A stretch of 64,000 bases of DNA from Acidobacteriota bacterium. GTDB lineage: Bacteria > Acidobacteriota > Terriglobia > Terriglobales > Acidobacteriaceae. Below are positions 39,488 to 45,212 of this stretch, piece after piece. Location of the stretch: positions 1 through 64,000 of the forward strand of contig JARLGI010000073.1 of NCBI GenBank assembly GCA_031296115.1, read 5' to 3'. A program made the translations under genes and the position numbers. The stretch's first letter is position 1, and each line of letters opens with the position of its first letter. Below the pieces are notes generated by a model. The model was not told the origin of the DNA, made no database searches, and worked only from the letters and a program-made list of their open reading frames with translations.

Positions 39488-42202
39488 CTAGAAGGTGGTG
39501 GCGACGGTGAAGCGGAAGGTCTTGCGCGGCTCGCGCAGCAAATAGCTCGGCTGATAAATCGATACCGCCTGGGCGTAGGTATAGTTGCCAGCCGCGCCCG
39601 CCGGGAACATGGAGCGCGTGATCGGCGTCGGCGAAGTGACATATTCGTCGATGCGCAGCGGGTTGTAGGCGTAGTAAATGCGGAACGGCGCATTCACGAT
39701 CGGCATGATGACCTGGAGTTCCAGACCCGTGGACATGCGTGGCTGATAGTTGGTCCCGGAGATCGGTTTCAGTTCAGGTGTAAACGGAATGGTGGAACCG
39801 CCGGCGCAGGTGTAGGTGGGCGTCAAGGTTGGACAGCCGAAGACCGTGGTCTGCAGGGTGGTGACCTGCGGGCCCGCAATCCGCAATTGCGACTGGTTCG
39901 AGATGAAGTCCATTCCGGTGTCGACGAAGGCCGCGATGGTCACCGGGCCGACAATAGGCACGCGGTATTCGATGTTGTTGACGAAGTTGGTGTCGCCGCC
40001 GGGGAAGATGACCGTCTCGGTCGGGATCGTGATCGTGTACGCGCCTTGGCGCGGGTTCGCCGGGTTCAAGGGAACCACCGTCCCGTCCGGGTTTAGCAGC
40101 GGAATCGTTACTCCCCCCGGGAAGAACGTTGCCGGCGAGATAGCGCGAATGTCGAAGCCGCGGACGTCGGTATCGCCGCCCATGTAGAAGCGGTCAAACG
40201 GCGGTGCCACCTGCCCGCCGTATCCTGTGATCCAAGAACCCAGCAGCCGGAACCCTAAGGTGTTACGCCCCTTCTGCACGGGGACGAACTTCTTGTACTC
40301 AGCCACTGGTTTGATGTAGCGCACATTGCCACCCAGACCGGCAAATTCAGTCGCAATGTAGAAACTCTGGCCAGAGTGAGGGCGTGACGGGTTGTCAATC
40401 CGGTTATACGAGAAGTTCGGCACGATCTTGCTGGTAACAATCCCCTGCAGCGCGTTCGGCCCGGAGATGCCACGGAAGGCCAGGGTCTGGAAATAGTTCT
40501 GCGAAGCTGTGCTGTAGGCCGTGACCGACGAATCATCCAGGGCGTAGGTTATGCCGACGCGCTTGAACGAGCGCTTGATGGGATAGGCCAGGGAAGTGGT
40601 GAAGCCGGTGCTCGTCTGGGTGAAGTTCTGCAACAGCGCCTGGTAGCTGGCCGGCAGATTCACCGTCTGATTGAGCTGGATTTGCGTCAGCGCCGCCTGG
40701 TTGTAGTTATAGCTGTTGTGATACACCGACCAGGAAAACTGCAGCGGGCGGTCAAACAGATAGGGCTGGGTGAAAGCCAGCGTCTCGTTCTTCTGGTACT
40801 GGCCCACCTGGAATTGCACACTTAACGACTCGCCCTTGCCGAACAGATTGTTGGTGGTGTAGTTCAGCCCAATGAACGCGCCCGAAAGCCCGCTGACGCC
40901 GCCGGTCAGGCCGATGCTGTTCTTGCCCTTTTCCTTGACCTTCAGGGTGATGTCAACCGTGGCTTCCTGCACGTTCTGCTTGATCTCGGAGTCCTGCTCC
41001 GGCTTCAACGGCTCGAAGTATTGCAGCTGATTCAAGCGCAGCAGGCTCAGTTCCCAGAGGTTGCCGTTGTAGACCTGGCCTTCTTCCAGCGCCAGCTCGC
41101 GGCGGATGACCTTGTCGCGCGTCGTGGTGTTACCCTGGAACTCAATGCGGCGGACATAGAACTGCTTACCTTCGTCAAGGTCGATGCGCAGGCTGATCGT
41201 CTTCTTTTCGTCGTCCGGATCGGTATTGGGTACCGGAGTGAAGTTGATGTAACCCAGCTGGGCATAAGCCTTGCGCAGGGCCTCCAGTCCTTTACGGATC
41301 GCCTCGGTATCGAAAATGTCGCCATCCTTGATTTTGAACAGCGCGCGCAAACCCGCGGTGTTGGTGACAGCCTTGTTGCCGCTGAAGGTGATGTCCTTCA
41401 GCCGGTAGCGCTGGCCTTCCTCAACCGGAATGGTGATGTCGACCGCCTTGCCGGGCGACTTCTTCCATGGCATGTACCACACGAAGCCGCTGGTGTCGTG
41501 AATCTGGGTCTTGGGATCGGCGACCAGCGCCTTGAAGTATCCCTTGGTCTGGTAGAAGTAGCGCACGCGCTCGGCGTCTTCGTTGAGCTTGGTCGAGTCG
41601 TAGGTGCGCGGGAACAGGCTTTCCAGAAAGATGGAGTGCGGAATACCGATCGGCTTCAGGTTCTTCATGGCGCTTTGCAGCTCACGATTGCTGAGCGCCT
41701 TGTTGCCTTCAAACTTGATCTTGCCGACCTTGACCTTGGGCCCTTCCTTCACCACGAACGTCAGGCTGACCGACGCGGGAGGAATGGGACGCACCTCGGA
41801 ACGAACGGTGGCGAACTGGTGACCGTGCGCCGCCAGCAGCTCCTTGATGACGACTTCGGCGCGTTTCACTTTGGTCGGATCGTACTGGCTTTCCTGGGTG
41901 AGGCCGACCTTGCGTTCCTTGAATTTGTCGAGAACGTCGCTCTGCGAGACCGTACTCAGGCCCGTGTACTTGATCTCGCGGATGGTCGGCTTTTCCTTGA
42001 CGTAGACGTGGATGATCCATCCCTTGGTGGATTCCTCCCGCTCAATGCGCAGGTCGTCGAAGTACCCGGTGTTCCACAGCGAGTTGAAGTCCCGCTCCAG
42101 CGCCGCCTGGTCGTAGACATCACCGGGCCGGGTGAACATGCGCGCGCGAATCGTGTCGGCCGGAATGCGCCGATTGCCGTGGATGACTATGCTCGCCACC
42201 AC
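39488..42202 (-). CDS. bamA: Outer-membrane assembly factor BamA (Omp85)
   Basis: Core of the BAM complex that folds beta-barrel proteins into the outer membrane. The visible frame codes 904 residues: POTRA repeats from VASIVIHGNRRIPADTI to about residue 400 (others start at IREIKYTGLSTVSQ, VKVGKIKFEGNKALSN, RLKDITFSGNKAVTN, YVRRIEFQGNTTTRDKV), then a barrel with GGDTDVRGFDIR near the end and a C-terminal RFTVATTF (aromatic last residue). 42202 is only the first ordinary start codon (GTG) and falls inside the first POTRA strand. The same frame stays open 42 more codons to an ATT at 42328 and codes a signal peptide there (ISFLLALLLLAGTCVAQQE). So the true N-terminus lies upstream, by a rare ATT start or by a frameshift. 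Confidence 0.95.
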   Translation of the reverse strand: MVASIVIHGNRRIPADTIRARMFTRPGDVYDQAALERDFNSLWNTGYFDDLRIEREESTKGWIIHVYVKEKPTIREIKYTGLSTVSQSDVLDKFKERKVGLTQESQYDPTKVKRAEVVIKELLAAHGHQFATVRSEVRPIPPASVSLTFVVKEGPKVKVGKIKFEGNKALSNRELQSAMKNLKPIGIPHSIFLESLFPRTYDSTKLNEDAERVRYFYQTKGYFKALVADPKTQIHDTSGFVWYMPWKKSPGKAVDITIPVEEGQRYRLKDITFSGNKAVTNTAGLRALFKIKDGDIFDTEAIRKGLEALRKAYAQLGYINFTPVPNTDPDDEKKTISLRIDLDEGKQFYVRRIEFQGNTTTRDKVIRRELALEEGQVYNGNLWELSLLRLNQLQYFEPLKPEQDSEIKQNVQEATVDITLKVKEKGKNSIGLTGGVSGLSGAFIGLNYTTNNLFGKGESLSVQFQVGQYQKNETLAFTQPYLFDRPLQFSWSVYHNSYNYNQAALTQIQLNQTVNLPASYQALLQNFTQTSTGFTTSLAYPIKRSFKRVGITYALDDSSVTAYSTASQNYFQTLAFRGISGPNALQGIVTSKIVPNFSYNRIDNPSRPHSGQSFYIATEFAGLGGNVRYIKPVAEYKKFVPVQKGRNTLGFRLLGSWITGYGGQVAPPFDRFYMGGDTDVRGFDIRAISPATFFPGGVTIPLLNPDGTVVPLNPANPRQGAYTITIPTETVIFPGGDTNFVNNIEYRVPIVGPVTIAAFVDTGMDFISNQSQLRIAGPQVTTLQTTVFGCPTLTPTYTCAGGSTIPFTPELKPISGTNYQPRMSTGLELQVIMPIVNAPFRIYYAYNPLRIDEYVTSPTPITRSMFPAGAAGNYTYAQAVSIYQPSYLLREPRKTFRFTVATTF

Positions 42203-42544
42203 CTCCTGCTGTGCAACGCATGTGCCCGCGAGGAGGAGAAGAGCTAGAAGGAAGCTAATCGCCGTGGCGCAACAGCGGGCCCCGCGGAGGAAACGGGCCG
42301 CGGGTCTTACCTGAAGATGGCAAGAAATGACGAAACCTCAGTACCAGTTGATGAAAGCGCAATTATACGGTACGGGAGCGCTCTCCGTGTAACCGCGCGG
42401 TCCCCTGTTCCCTGCCGGACGGCTACCCTAACCCTCGCTGCGACAGGAAGTTTCGCGCCGCTGGCCTCGACCAGCCACCGTGGCCGCCGTCAACCGTGTT
42501 GCCTTGAGCGCGGCTGCGGGACACGGCCCGGCGCATCCGGTTGC

Positions 42545-42550
42545 TAGAAT
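42545..42550 (+). promoter_or_regulatory. -10 box of selD (leaderless type)
   Basis: TAGAAT preceded by TTGC, eight bases before the ATG at 42559. With normal spacing, transcription would start at or within two bases of the start codon. Confidence 0.55.
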
Positions 42551-42558
42551 GAATCTGC

Positions 42559-43608
42559 ATGTCCGAAGTCAAGACAACGCGCCTCACGGAGATGGTGAAA
42601 GCCGCGGGTTGAGCCAGCAAGCTAAGTCCGGCGGTGCTGGACTCGGTGCTTGGGAAATTAGCCCGGCAACACGACCCCAACGTGCTCGTCGGCTTTGATA
42701 CCGCCGACGACGCCGGAGTGTATCAACTCACGCCCGAGCTGGCGTTGGTGCAGACAGTGGACTTCTTCACCCCCATCGTGGACGATCCCTACATCTTTGG
42801 CCAGATTGCCGCCACCAACGCGTTGAGCGACGTCTACGCCATGGGCGGCAAGCCGCTGAGTGCTTTGACCCTGGTGTGCTTCCCCGACCTCGGCGATGTG
42901 AGAATCCTGGAAGAAATGCTGGCCGGCGGATTGTCGAAGATGGTGGAAGCCAACTGCACCGTCATCGGCGGGCATAGCATTCGCGATGACGAGATGAAGC
43001 TGGGATACTCCGTGACCGGCACCGTGCATCCCAAGAAAGTGCTGGCGAACAGCGGGGCGAAGGCCGGCGACCGGCTCATCTTCACCAAGGCCATCGGTAC
43101 CGGCGTAATCTCCACCGCCATCAAGCGCGGCAAGGCCCAGCTTGCCTGGATACGCGACGCGGTGCGCTCCATGACCACGCTGAACAAAGCAGCCGCCGAG
43201 GTGGTCACCAGCTGTTTCGAGGTGCATGGCATGACGGACGTGACCGGCTTCGGCGTGATCGGCCATGCGCGCGAGATGGCCCGCGGCTCCGGCGTTAGCC
43301 TGCGTATCCTCGCATCGCGGGTGCGCCTGCTGGAGGGCGCGCTGGAATGTGTCCGCTCCGGCCATGTGCCCGGTGGGCTAAACGCCAATCGCAAGTTCGC
43401 CGAGGATTGCGTGGAGTATGCCAACGACGTGCCACAGGAAGTTCGCACCCTGTTGTACGACCCGCAGACGGCAGGGGGCCTGCTGATCGCGGTGGCGGAA
43501 TCCGATTCCGCCCGCCTGCTCGCCCAGTTGCACGACGCGAGCGTGGACGCCGCCGAAATCGGTGAAGTGGTGGAGAAGCAGAAGCCGCTGATAGCGGTGA
43601 CGGCCTGA
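42559..43608 (+). CDS. selD: Selenide, water dikinase, itself a selenoprotein (in-frame TGA)
   Basis: Makes selenophosphate from selenide and ATP for Sec-tRNA and selenouridine synthesis. A scan that treats TGA as stop starts only at a GTG at 42634, but the true start is the ATG at 42559: MSEVKTTRLTEMVKAAG, then TGA (42610-42612), then ASKLSPAVLDSVLGKLA. This matches the SelD glycine loop in which the active residue is Cys or Sec with Lys three places later (C17/K20 in E. coli; Sec18/K21 here). A hairpin right after the TGA can be the SECIS. The rest is complete: GFDTADDAGVY, VDFFTPIVDDPYIFGQIAA, DVYAMGGKPLSAL, VIGGHSIRDDEMKLGYSVTG and YDPQTAGGLL. 349 residues in all. Confidence 0.93.
42610..42640 (+). 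promoter_or_regulatory. Sec TGA codon and candidate bacterial SECIS hairpin
   Basis: TGA at 42610-42612, then an outer stem CCAGCA (42614-42619) with TGCTGG (42635-42640), an inner stem GCT (42621-42623) with GGC (42630-42632), and a loop AAGTCC holding a G and a U. The place directly after the UGA is where bacterial SelB-binding hairpins lie. Confidence 0.6.
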
Positions 43609-43823: not shown

Positions 43824-45212
43824 ATGAATACTTCCACTGAACAACGTCCCGCTGCCGCTTCCCCAACCGACCTCAAAGAAATCGCCGCCGACGTGGTAAG
43901 CCGCGCTGCGCAGGGTGGCGCCACCGCTGCCGAAGCGGTTGCCATGGACGGCAGCGAGTTCTCCACGGTCGTCCGTCTCGGCGAAGTCGAGACCCTGAAA
44001 GAGTCCGGCTCCAAGGCCATCGGTTTGCGCGTTTTTTTCGGACAACGCGCCGCCAGCACTCATTCCAGCGACCTCAGCCCGGAAGGCATCCGCCAACTTG
44101 TGGACTCCGCACTGGCGCTGGCCAAGGTCACCAGCGAAGATCCCTTCGCTGGAATTCCTGAGCCCGGGCAACTCGGCAAGCTGGAAGGCGAACTCGACCT
44201 CTACTACGACGATGTGTACTCGCTCTCCAACGAGGATCGCATTGACTACGCCCGCCGCGCCGAGGAGGCCGCGCTTGACGCTGACCCGCGCATCGTCAAC
44301 TCCGATGGCGGCAGCTTCGACGCCGCCATCGGCTACAAGGTCTTGGCGAACTCGCATGGCTTCCTCGGCGATTACCGGCGCTCCTACTGCTCGGTTTCGG
44401 CCGTGCCCATCGCACAGGTGGAAGGCTCGGCCATGCAACGCGACTACTGGTACTCGGTGGCGATGACGCTGAAGAAGCTGGAATCGCCAGAGGAAGTCGG
44501 GAAGACTGCCGCGAAGCGCACCCTGCGGCGCATCGGCGCGCGCAAGGTCAAGACCGCGAAAGTGCCCATCGTGTTCGAGCACACCGTCGCCGGCGCCCTG
44601 GTCGGGCACATCTTCGAGGCGGTCAACGGCGATTCCATCTGGCGCGGCGCGTCGTTCCTCAGCGGCAAGCTGAACGAAAAGATTGCCGGCGACAACATCA
44701 ACATCGTGGACGACGGCACCATGCGCGGCGGCTTCGGTACCAGTCCCTTCGACTCCGAAGGCGTGCCCAGCCGCAAGACCGTGGTGGTCGAGAACGGCGT
44801 GCTGAAGTCGTACCTGCTAAACACCTACACAGCGAAGAAGCTCGGCCTGCAGACCACCGGCAACGCCTCGCGCGGGCTGGCGGGAACGCCCGGCATCGGC
44901 CCGGGCAACTTCTTCCTCAAGCCCGGCGCGAAGAGCCTGGAGGAAATCATCGGCGACATCAAGGAAGGGTTGTTCGTCACCGAGTTCCTCGGCTTCGGCG
45001 TGAACCTGGTCACCGGCGACTTCTCGCGCGGCGCCAGCGGCCTGTGGATTGAGAACGGAGCACTCACCTTTCCGGTGGAGGAGATCACCGTCGCCGGCAA
45101 CTTGAAGGACATGTTCTTCAACATCTCGGAGATCGGCAACGACCTCGAGTTCCGCAGCTCGATCGCTTCGCCGACCCTGCGCATCGACGGCATGACGGTC
45201 GCGGGGGAATAG
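43824..45212 (+). CDS. pmbA: TldD/PmbA family metallopeptidase, PmbA (TldE)
   Basis: With TldD, PmbA forms a cytoplasmic heterodimeric protease that matures peptides such as microcin B17 and degrades the CcdA antitoxin; its general role is unclear. The 462-residue protein shows the family signs: AIGLRVFFGQRAASTHSSDL, ANSHGFLGDYRRSYCSVS, KTAKVPIVFEHTVAGALVGH, DDGTMRGGFGTSPFDSEGVP, KSYLLNTYTAKKLG and GLFVTEFLGFGVNLVTGDFS. It lacks the HExxxH zinc motif found in TldD, as PmbA should. TldD itself is not in the window. A TAGAAT box 12 bases upstream suggests a very short leader. Confidence 0.93.
   Translation: MNTSTEQRPAAASPTDLKEIAADVVSRAAQGGATAAEAVAMDGSEFSTVVRLGEVETLKESGSKAIGLRVFFGQRAASTHSSDLSPEGIRQLVDSALALAKVTSEDPFAGIPEPGQLGKLEGELDLYYDDVYSLSNEDRIDYARRAEEAALDADPRIVNSDGGSFDAAIGYKVLANSHGFLGDYRRSYCSVSAVPIAQVEGSAMQRDYWYSVAMTLKKLESPEEVGKTAAKRTLRRIGARKVKTAKVPIVFEHTVAGALVGHIFEAVNGDSIWRGASFLSGKLNEKIAGDNINIVDDGTMRGGFGTSPFDSEGVPSRKTVVVENGVLKSYLLNTYTAKKLGLQTTGNASRGLAGTPGIGPGNFFLKPGAKSLEEIIGDIKEGLFVTEFLGFGVNLVTGDFSRGASGLWIENGALTFPVEEITVAGNLKDMFFNISEIGNDLEFRSSIASPTLRIDGMTVAGE

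Follow-up and report, generated by a model that had tools for sequence, protein, structure and literature searches.

The window, by which we mean the whole 64,000-nucleotide stretch of Acidobacteriota DNA analysed here, carries a selD gene in which a TGA triplet interrupts the reading frame close to its beginning. On either side lie genes at 43824-45212 and 39488-42202, which from the look of their translations we take to encode a TldD/PmbA-type protein and a BamA-type outer-membrane protein, respectively. At the level of the gene, two features concern us:

42559..43608, forward strand: selD, selenide, water dikinase, with a putative selenocysteine (Sec) at codon 18 and an ordinary TGA stop at 43606-43608
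42610..42612, forward strand: in-frame TGA, the putative Sec codon 18, occupied by TGA in 70/90 and by TGC or TGT in 20/90 family loci

A mechanical listing of open reading frames gives only the part of selD from GTG 42634 to 43608, a product of 324 amino acids. Read from the ATG at 42559, the frame comprises 349 codons plus a stop and contains a single internal TGA. The read-through product matches the SelD model TIGR00476 with 372 bits (cut-off 125) over residues 8-316, and in an alignment with the solved SelD 3u0o, which runs from residue 6, a Cys of 3u0o stands opposite the TGA; a Lys follows three places later, at codon 21. The original prediction had placed the standard reading at 42634, the full gene at ATG 42559 with one TGA where SelD proteins have Cys or Sec, and a Lys three places past it, and on each of these points the frame and the alignment agree with it. 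In a published benchmark 195 of 298 selenoprotein genes were annotated correctly (PMC12013277), and it is plausible that annotation pipelines truncate genes of this sort.

The prediction also implied that SelA, SelB and tRNA-Sec are encoded elsewhere in the genome, and all three were found above curated cut-offs. The source assembly, a 125-contig draft of 3.75 Mb that is 93.6% complete with 3.8% contamination, holds selA on contig C63 (565 bits, cut-off 268), selB on C17 (384 bits, cut-off 242) and, on C88, a tRNA-Sec whose anticodon is TCA (67.1 bits, gathering score 47). As these lie on other contigs, there is no sel gene cluster at selD here. Among the 200 genomes searched, the six of the same genus other than the source carry selB in five cases and tRNA-Sec in all six, which argues against contamination as the source of the machinery. 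A second gene with an in-frame TGA encodes an FdnG-type formate dehydrogenase subunit (G000:C17:66915-68174; L224, L241), whose 420 N-terminal residues score 558 bits with TIGR01553, less than the cut-off of 814 that applies to the full length; selD and this gene are the two in-frame-UGA genes found in the source genome. We observed in the FdnG-type gene a SECIS-like hairpin of similar geometry, with a GUU loop approximately 19 nt after its UGA. A search of the source genome for the tRNA selenouridine synthase (TIGR03167, E 0.001) returned no match, leaving selenouridine unsupported in this genome.

We then surveyed 200 genomes of the same family, which divided into 92 with a TGA-type selD, 19 with a Cys-type selD, one in which the N-terminus is missing, and 88 with no SelD-level match; 22 of the 92 were classed from an internal-stop listing rather than by reading the codon individually, and genomes without SelD were classed by the best E-value of each genome. 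Codon 18 was read in 94 loci (90 from family genomes and four on named contigs) as TGA in 74, TGC in 15 and TGT in five. The 90 family loci, which are among the matches listed or fetched and not every match, gave TGA in 70 and a Cys codon in 20. Two pairs of loci (L050/L162 and L051/L169) are apparently the same contigs, and the 74 TGA loci therefore amount to about 72 independent ones. A first, wider set, overlapping the 90 loci, contained Cys homologs in 23 of 110. Close relatives with an ordinary stop and a later start would have spoken for a different gene structure; the best four same-genus selD genes among the matches listed keep the TGA, at an overall protein identity of 81-83%. Among named relatives, the nearest are metagenome assemblies assigned to Terriglobales and Acidobacteria.

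The machinery for Sec decoding was also recorded across the family. Among the 92 TGA-type genomes, which are related and not independent, 90 have selB or tRNA-Sec (selB 82, tRNA-Sec 76, both 68) and two, G057 and G192, have neither. A match to selB or tRNA-Sec was found in 18 of 19 Cys-type genomes, and the 88 genomes without a SelD-level match include nine with selB, eight with tRNA-Sec and five with both. One of the latter kind from the same genus (G063, a draft that is 99% complete) has selB, tRNA-Sec and a TGA-type formate dehydrogenase without a SelD-level match, either through an assembly gap or through real loss of selD; in another same-genus draft (G173), a TGA-type selD and tRNA-Sec occur without a selB match. 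An FdnG-type match at E 1e-100 was present in 24 of 80 family genomes, and among those with a TGA-type selD, selB and tRNA-Sec but no such match there may be some whose chief or sole selenoprotein is SelD.

Several further observations from the survey are given for completeness. Genomes such as G004, G013, G018 and G025 carry a TGA-type selD, selB and tRNA-Sec without an FdnG-type match at E 1e-100. The loci L172-L181 form a distinct group of Cys-type selD, some with selB and tRNA-Sec a few kb or less from selD (e.g., G142:C517), an arrangement unlike the scattered sel genes of the window's genome. One assembly (G048) contains both a Cys-type and a TGA-type selD (L182 and L183), reflecting a second copy or contamination. 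A quick selD tree, estimated without L238 and L239, which have runs of N within the element described below, and without L229, which was too short, needs at least eight changes between Sec and Cys, although its support is weak: only 8 of 107 inner branches are starred, and the starred branches force only one change.

The marks of a Sec-containing SelD, namely a match to the curated SelD model, a UGA opposite the catalytic Cys, a Lys at +3, the machinery in the genome and homologs with Cys, are all present in this gene. Taken together, the reading frame, the machinery, the second TGA-containing gene and the TGA in 70/90 family loci point to selD as a selenoprotein gene. We consider it very probable from these sequence comparisons that its product is a Sec-containing SelD, with the UGA at codon 18 decoded by way of a SECIS hairpin.

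The RNA following, and partly preceding, the TGA is predicted to fold into an element with three stems:

42606..42612, forward strand: 5′ arm of the predicted lower stem, GGGUUGA, which holds the Sec codon (minimum-energy fold and family model)
42658..42664, forward strand: 3′ arm of the predicted lower stem, UUAGCCC, codons 34-36, with TTA at codon 34 in 73/74 TGA loci
42618..42622, forward strand: 5′ arm of the predicted middle stem, CAAGC
42648..42652, forward strand: 3′ arm of the predicted middle stem, GCUUG
42625..42643, forward strand: predicted upper hairpin, AGUCCGGC-GGU-GCUGGACU, with 20 nt from TGA to loop (fold and published bSECIS criteria, PMC13188914)

In the minimum-energy fold, an upper stem of 8 bp with a GGU loop is followed by a middle stem of 5 bp and a lower stem of 7 bp that includes the TGA; the upper stem begins 12 nt past the TGA. 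The original prediction had drawn a hairpin of 6+3 bp directly after the TGA. A hairpin is indeed predicted in this region, although it had been drawn too short, being part of an 8+5+7 bp structure, and its position was misjudged. A published model of bacterial SECIS elements (bSECIS) specifies a loop of 3-9 nt with a G in its first two positions, a stem of 4-16 bp, a distance of 16-37 nt from UGA to loop, and an energy of at most -7.5 kcal/mol (PMC13188914). The selD hairpin falls within these ranges, its loop being GGU, its stem 8 bp and its distance from the UGA 20 nt, and the energy (-33.1 kcal/mol) being that of 72 nt holding the whole element. A fold of the 43 nt from the UGA onward was different and unconvincing, as the upstream arm is needed. 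At a loose threshold, Rfam models gave three matches in 42500-42750, all at chance level. When a covariance model of the element was run against the source genome, it matched selD only (94.2 bits; the next hit scored 19.5 bits, E 0.1) and thus revealed no further selenoprotein.

The strong support for this element is its conservation, and the energy of one sequence is weak evidence. The energy of the window sequence has a z-score of -2.3 relative to dinucleotide shuffles, of which 4/200 were as good, and is modestly unusual relative to synonymous shuffles that preserve the protein, of which 69/1000 were as low. Across the family, the mean z-score against synonymous shuffles was -1.77, compared with -0.81 for a control stretch and 0.14 for Cys-type loci other than L034, and the UGA is fully paired in the minimum-energy fold of 72/74 TGA loci. 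Within the family the element is too fixed for covariation to be informative: 15 of 25 pairs are invariant, and 224/500 shuffles reached the observed score. Among 63 sequences, one pair of the lower stem fails in 12, the outer pairs of the middle stem in 44, 21 and 21, and an inner pair in 24.

Conservation at the level of synonymous codon choice defines a stretch that extends well past the upper hairpin:

42619..42669, forward strand: near-fixed synonymous stretch, codons 21-37, in which codon 22 is less fixed and residues 26 and 29 vary

Synonymous heterozygosity in 33 TGA loci averaged 0.052 over 15 codons in 21-37 versus 0.497 over 157 other conserved codons. None of 20000 random draws of codons was as low, and downstream of codon 40 the minimum for any window of 12 informative codons was 0.330. 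Codon 34 is TTA in 32/33 of these loci, against 18 TTA among 1125 Leu codons elsewhere, and codon 17 is GGT in 74/74 TGA loci, against 24/378 Gly codons at positions 40-97. Inside the block, the third base varies in codons 19, 20 and 22, and the encoded residue varies at 26 and 29. At one edge of the freeze codon 17 is fixed and codon 15 free, and at the other codon 36 is fixed and codon 38 free; these edges correspond to the 5′ and 3′ arms of the predicted lower stem. TGA and Cys-type loci were then compared by one common method, which for the 74 TGA loci yielded 0.067 inside the block and 0.449 downstream of it. In the 19 Cys-type loci, from which L034 was left out since it keeps the element, the values were 0.609 in the block (nine codons) and 0.554 after it, and there is no freeze. 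As a control we used fdhA from 25 loci drawn from 80 family genomes at E 1e-100, all 25 of which have TGA. Heterozygosity in fdhA was 0.233 at +1 to +9 (seven codons) and 0.453 at +10 to +20 (nine codons), with a background of 0.476 (176 codons); the constraint in these family loci is weaker and ends about nine codons past the UGA. The absence of a freeze in Cys-type selD and its shortness in fdhA together indicate that the long freeze accompanies Sec in selD rather than Sec decoding as such.

Remnants of the element were identified in Cys-type selD genes of genus g7, which score 89.4 (L034, TGT), 72.5 (L237, TGC) and 52.3 (L235, TGC) with the element model. The score of L034 (genome G176) lies inside the range of the TGA loci, and this combination of TGT with a complete element could be a recent conversion or a base-calling error. 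In a separate locus outside selD (L236, G113:C199:17006-17050), we noted a weak second match to the element model, at 26.6 bits and with no SelD match there. Codon 35 is GCC (Ala) in 74/74 Sec-type loci and encodes Pro in 19/19 Cys-type loci (without L034), as well as in L235 and L237; in Sec-type loci of a sister family of the order it encodes Ala, Val, Gln or Pro. We infer that Ala at codon 35 is dictated by the RNA, as the G and the C's of GCC lie in the stem.

The sister family has TGA in 7/8 loci, although these eight were picked by the RNA model itself, which leans to paired sequences. In 6/7 of the TGA loci the upper stem reads GUCCAAC-GGY-GUUGGAC, replacing GUCCGGC-GGY-GCUGGAC; both partners of one pair are altered, the 3′ substitution being synonymous in a Leu codon, and two of the six loci have identical elements. 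The lower stem of the sister family differs, and pairing of the UGA there is irregular.

Delivery of Sec by hairpin-bound SelB, and unwinding of the lower helix on the ribosome, have been described in bacteria (PMC13188914). By analogy, SelB bearing Sec-tRNA would bind the selD hairpin and deliver Sec at the UGA, and the upper hairpin, with its GGU loop 20 nt past the UGA, is the likely SelB site according to the predicted fold. The lower stem would pair the UGA itself with codons 34-36, and the lower helix would unwind on the ribosome. We infer from sequence that Sec is inserted and that the lower stem forms in vivo. The element of this family appears to be a SECIS with an extension specific to selD, and this extension is possibly autoregulatory. 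SelD makes the selenophosphate needed for Sec-tRNA, and since its product is needed in this way, a feedback role is the simplest guess: the extension would tune reading of the UGA as Sec or as stop, such that SelD output would track the supply of Sec-tRNA that SelD itself supports. In its fullest form, this would make the element an RNA switch particular to selD, with a closing stem that locks up the Sec codon, so that the output of the enzyme is controlled through its own Sec codon; we offer this as a tentative and rather doubtful proposal.

Other explanations must be weighed. One may postulate that selD is a Sec-containing SelD with an ordinary bSECIS, in which the long stretch adds only stability or efficiency to one SelB-binding hairpin near the start codon. 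This scenario is compatible with our main reading and concerns the role of the extension, and as an account of that role we consider it quite possible, if slightly short of an even prospect. The upper hairpin alone fits the published model, and according to a review, UGA reading in E. coli falls by about 25% when bases low in its SECIS are unpaired (PMC8659212), so the lower stem may simply add efficiency. The same figure can be turned around, however, as strict conservation in selD of a region whose unpaired bases cost about 25% of UGA reading in E. coli suggests a further task. It also sits uneasily with an ordinary SECIS that family fdhA is unconstrained past about nine codons, and that in selD positions as far as codon 37 are fixed whether or not they pair.

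An alternative in which the fixed stretch serves a role other than Sec, as an antisense gene, a small RNA or a regulator site, would account for the fixation of unpaired positions; nevertheless, Cys-type selD lacks the freeze (0.609 over nine codons) and the edges of the stretch coincide with the arms of the predicted lower stem, and we regard such a role as improbable. More improbable still is that the TGA is a real stop and that SelD is a truncated pseudogene or is translated from an internal start such as GTG 42634. Although a 324-codon open reading frame does begin at that GTG, the catalytic loop would go missing, the family conserves the protein sequence of codons 8-17, and the Sec machinery is present in the genome; moreover, the GTG is codon 26, which is GCG in 48/74 TGA loci, and it is therefore no conserved start. 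An error of sequencing or assembly, for which the 125-contig draft state of the source could be cited, is extremely unlikely given TGA in 74/94 loci read, about 72 of them independent.

The preferred reading thus remains a Sec-containing SelD whose SECIS carries a selD-specific extension. It confirms a gene that is truncated by simple open reading frame calling, and many relatives in the family keep Sec in SelD. The long element would provide a testable case of a Sec signal conserved well past what fdhA of the same family needs, and the Cys-type selD genes with an intact or part-decayed element offer a natural comparison for the purpose of that signal.

Sec-containing SelD is a well-known kind of gene, and in Acidobacteriota three selenoprotein genes have been reported for Occallatibacter riparius (PMC12013277). 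The long, near-fixed and selD-specific element appears to be a less expected variant, for which we found no description in the literature searched: a search of titles and abstract openings, with supplements and most subscription papers outside its scope, returned no extended selD SECIS in Acidobacteriota. RNAz has recovered bSECIS elements of Sec-containing SelD genes (PMC4561486), and the supplement of that study may already show longer forms. Bacterial Sec-SelD resembles the gene described here in having UGA at the catalytic Cys, Lys at +3, and selA, selB and tRNA-Sec in the genome, and the protein of the window is not notably different; what differs is the SECIS of this family, which is longer and near-fixed. 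Like elements that follow the published bSECIS model (PMC13188914), the selD hairpin has a 3-nt loop with G in its first positions, an upper stem of 8 bp, a UGA-to-loop distance of 20 nt and a stable fold, whereas the constraint in selD spans codons 17-37 with the UGA in the closing stem and fdhA of the family has the short form only. Conversions of Sec to Cys with a remnant SECIS have likewise been described (PMC1794560), and the Cys-type selD genes found here, in which the element is complete (L034) or has decayed in part (L237 and L235), are similar; here, however, they form a graded series within one genus code, g7.
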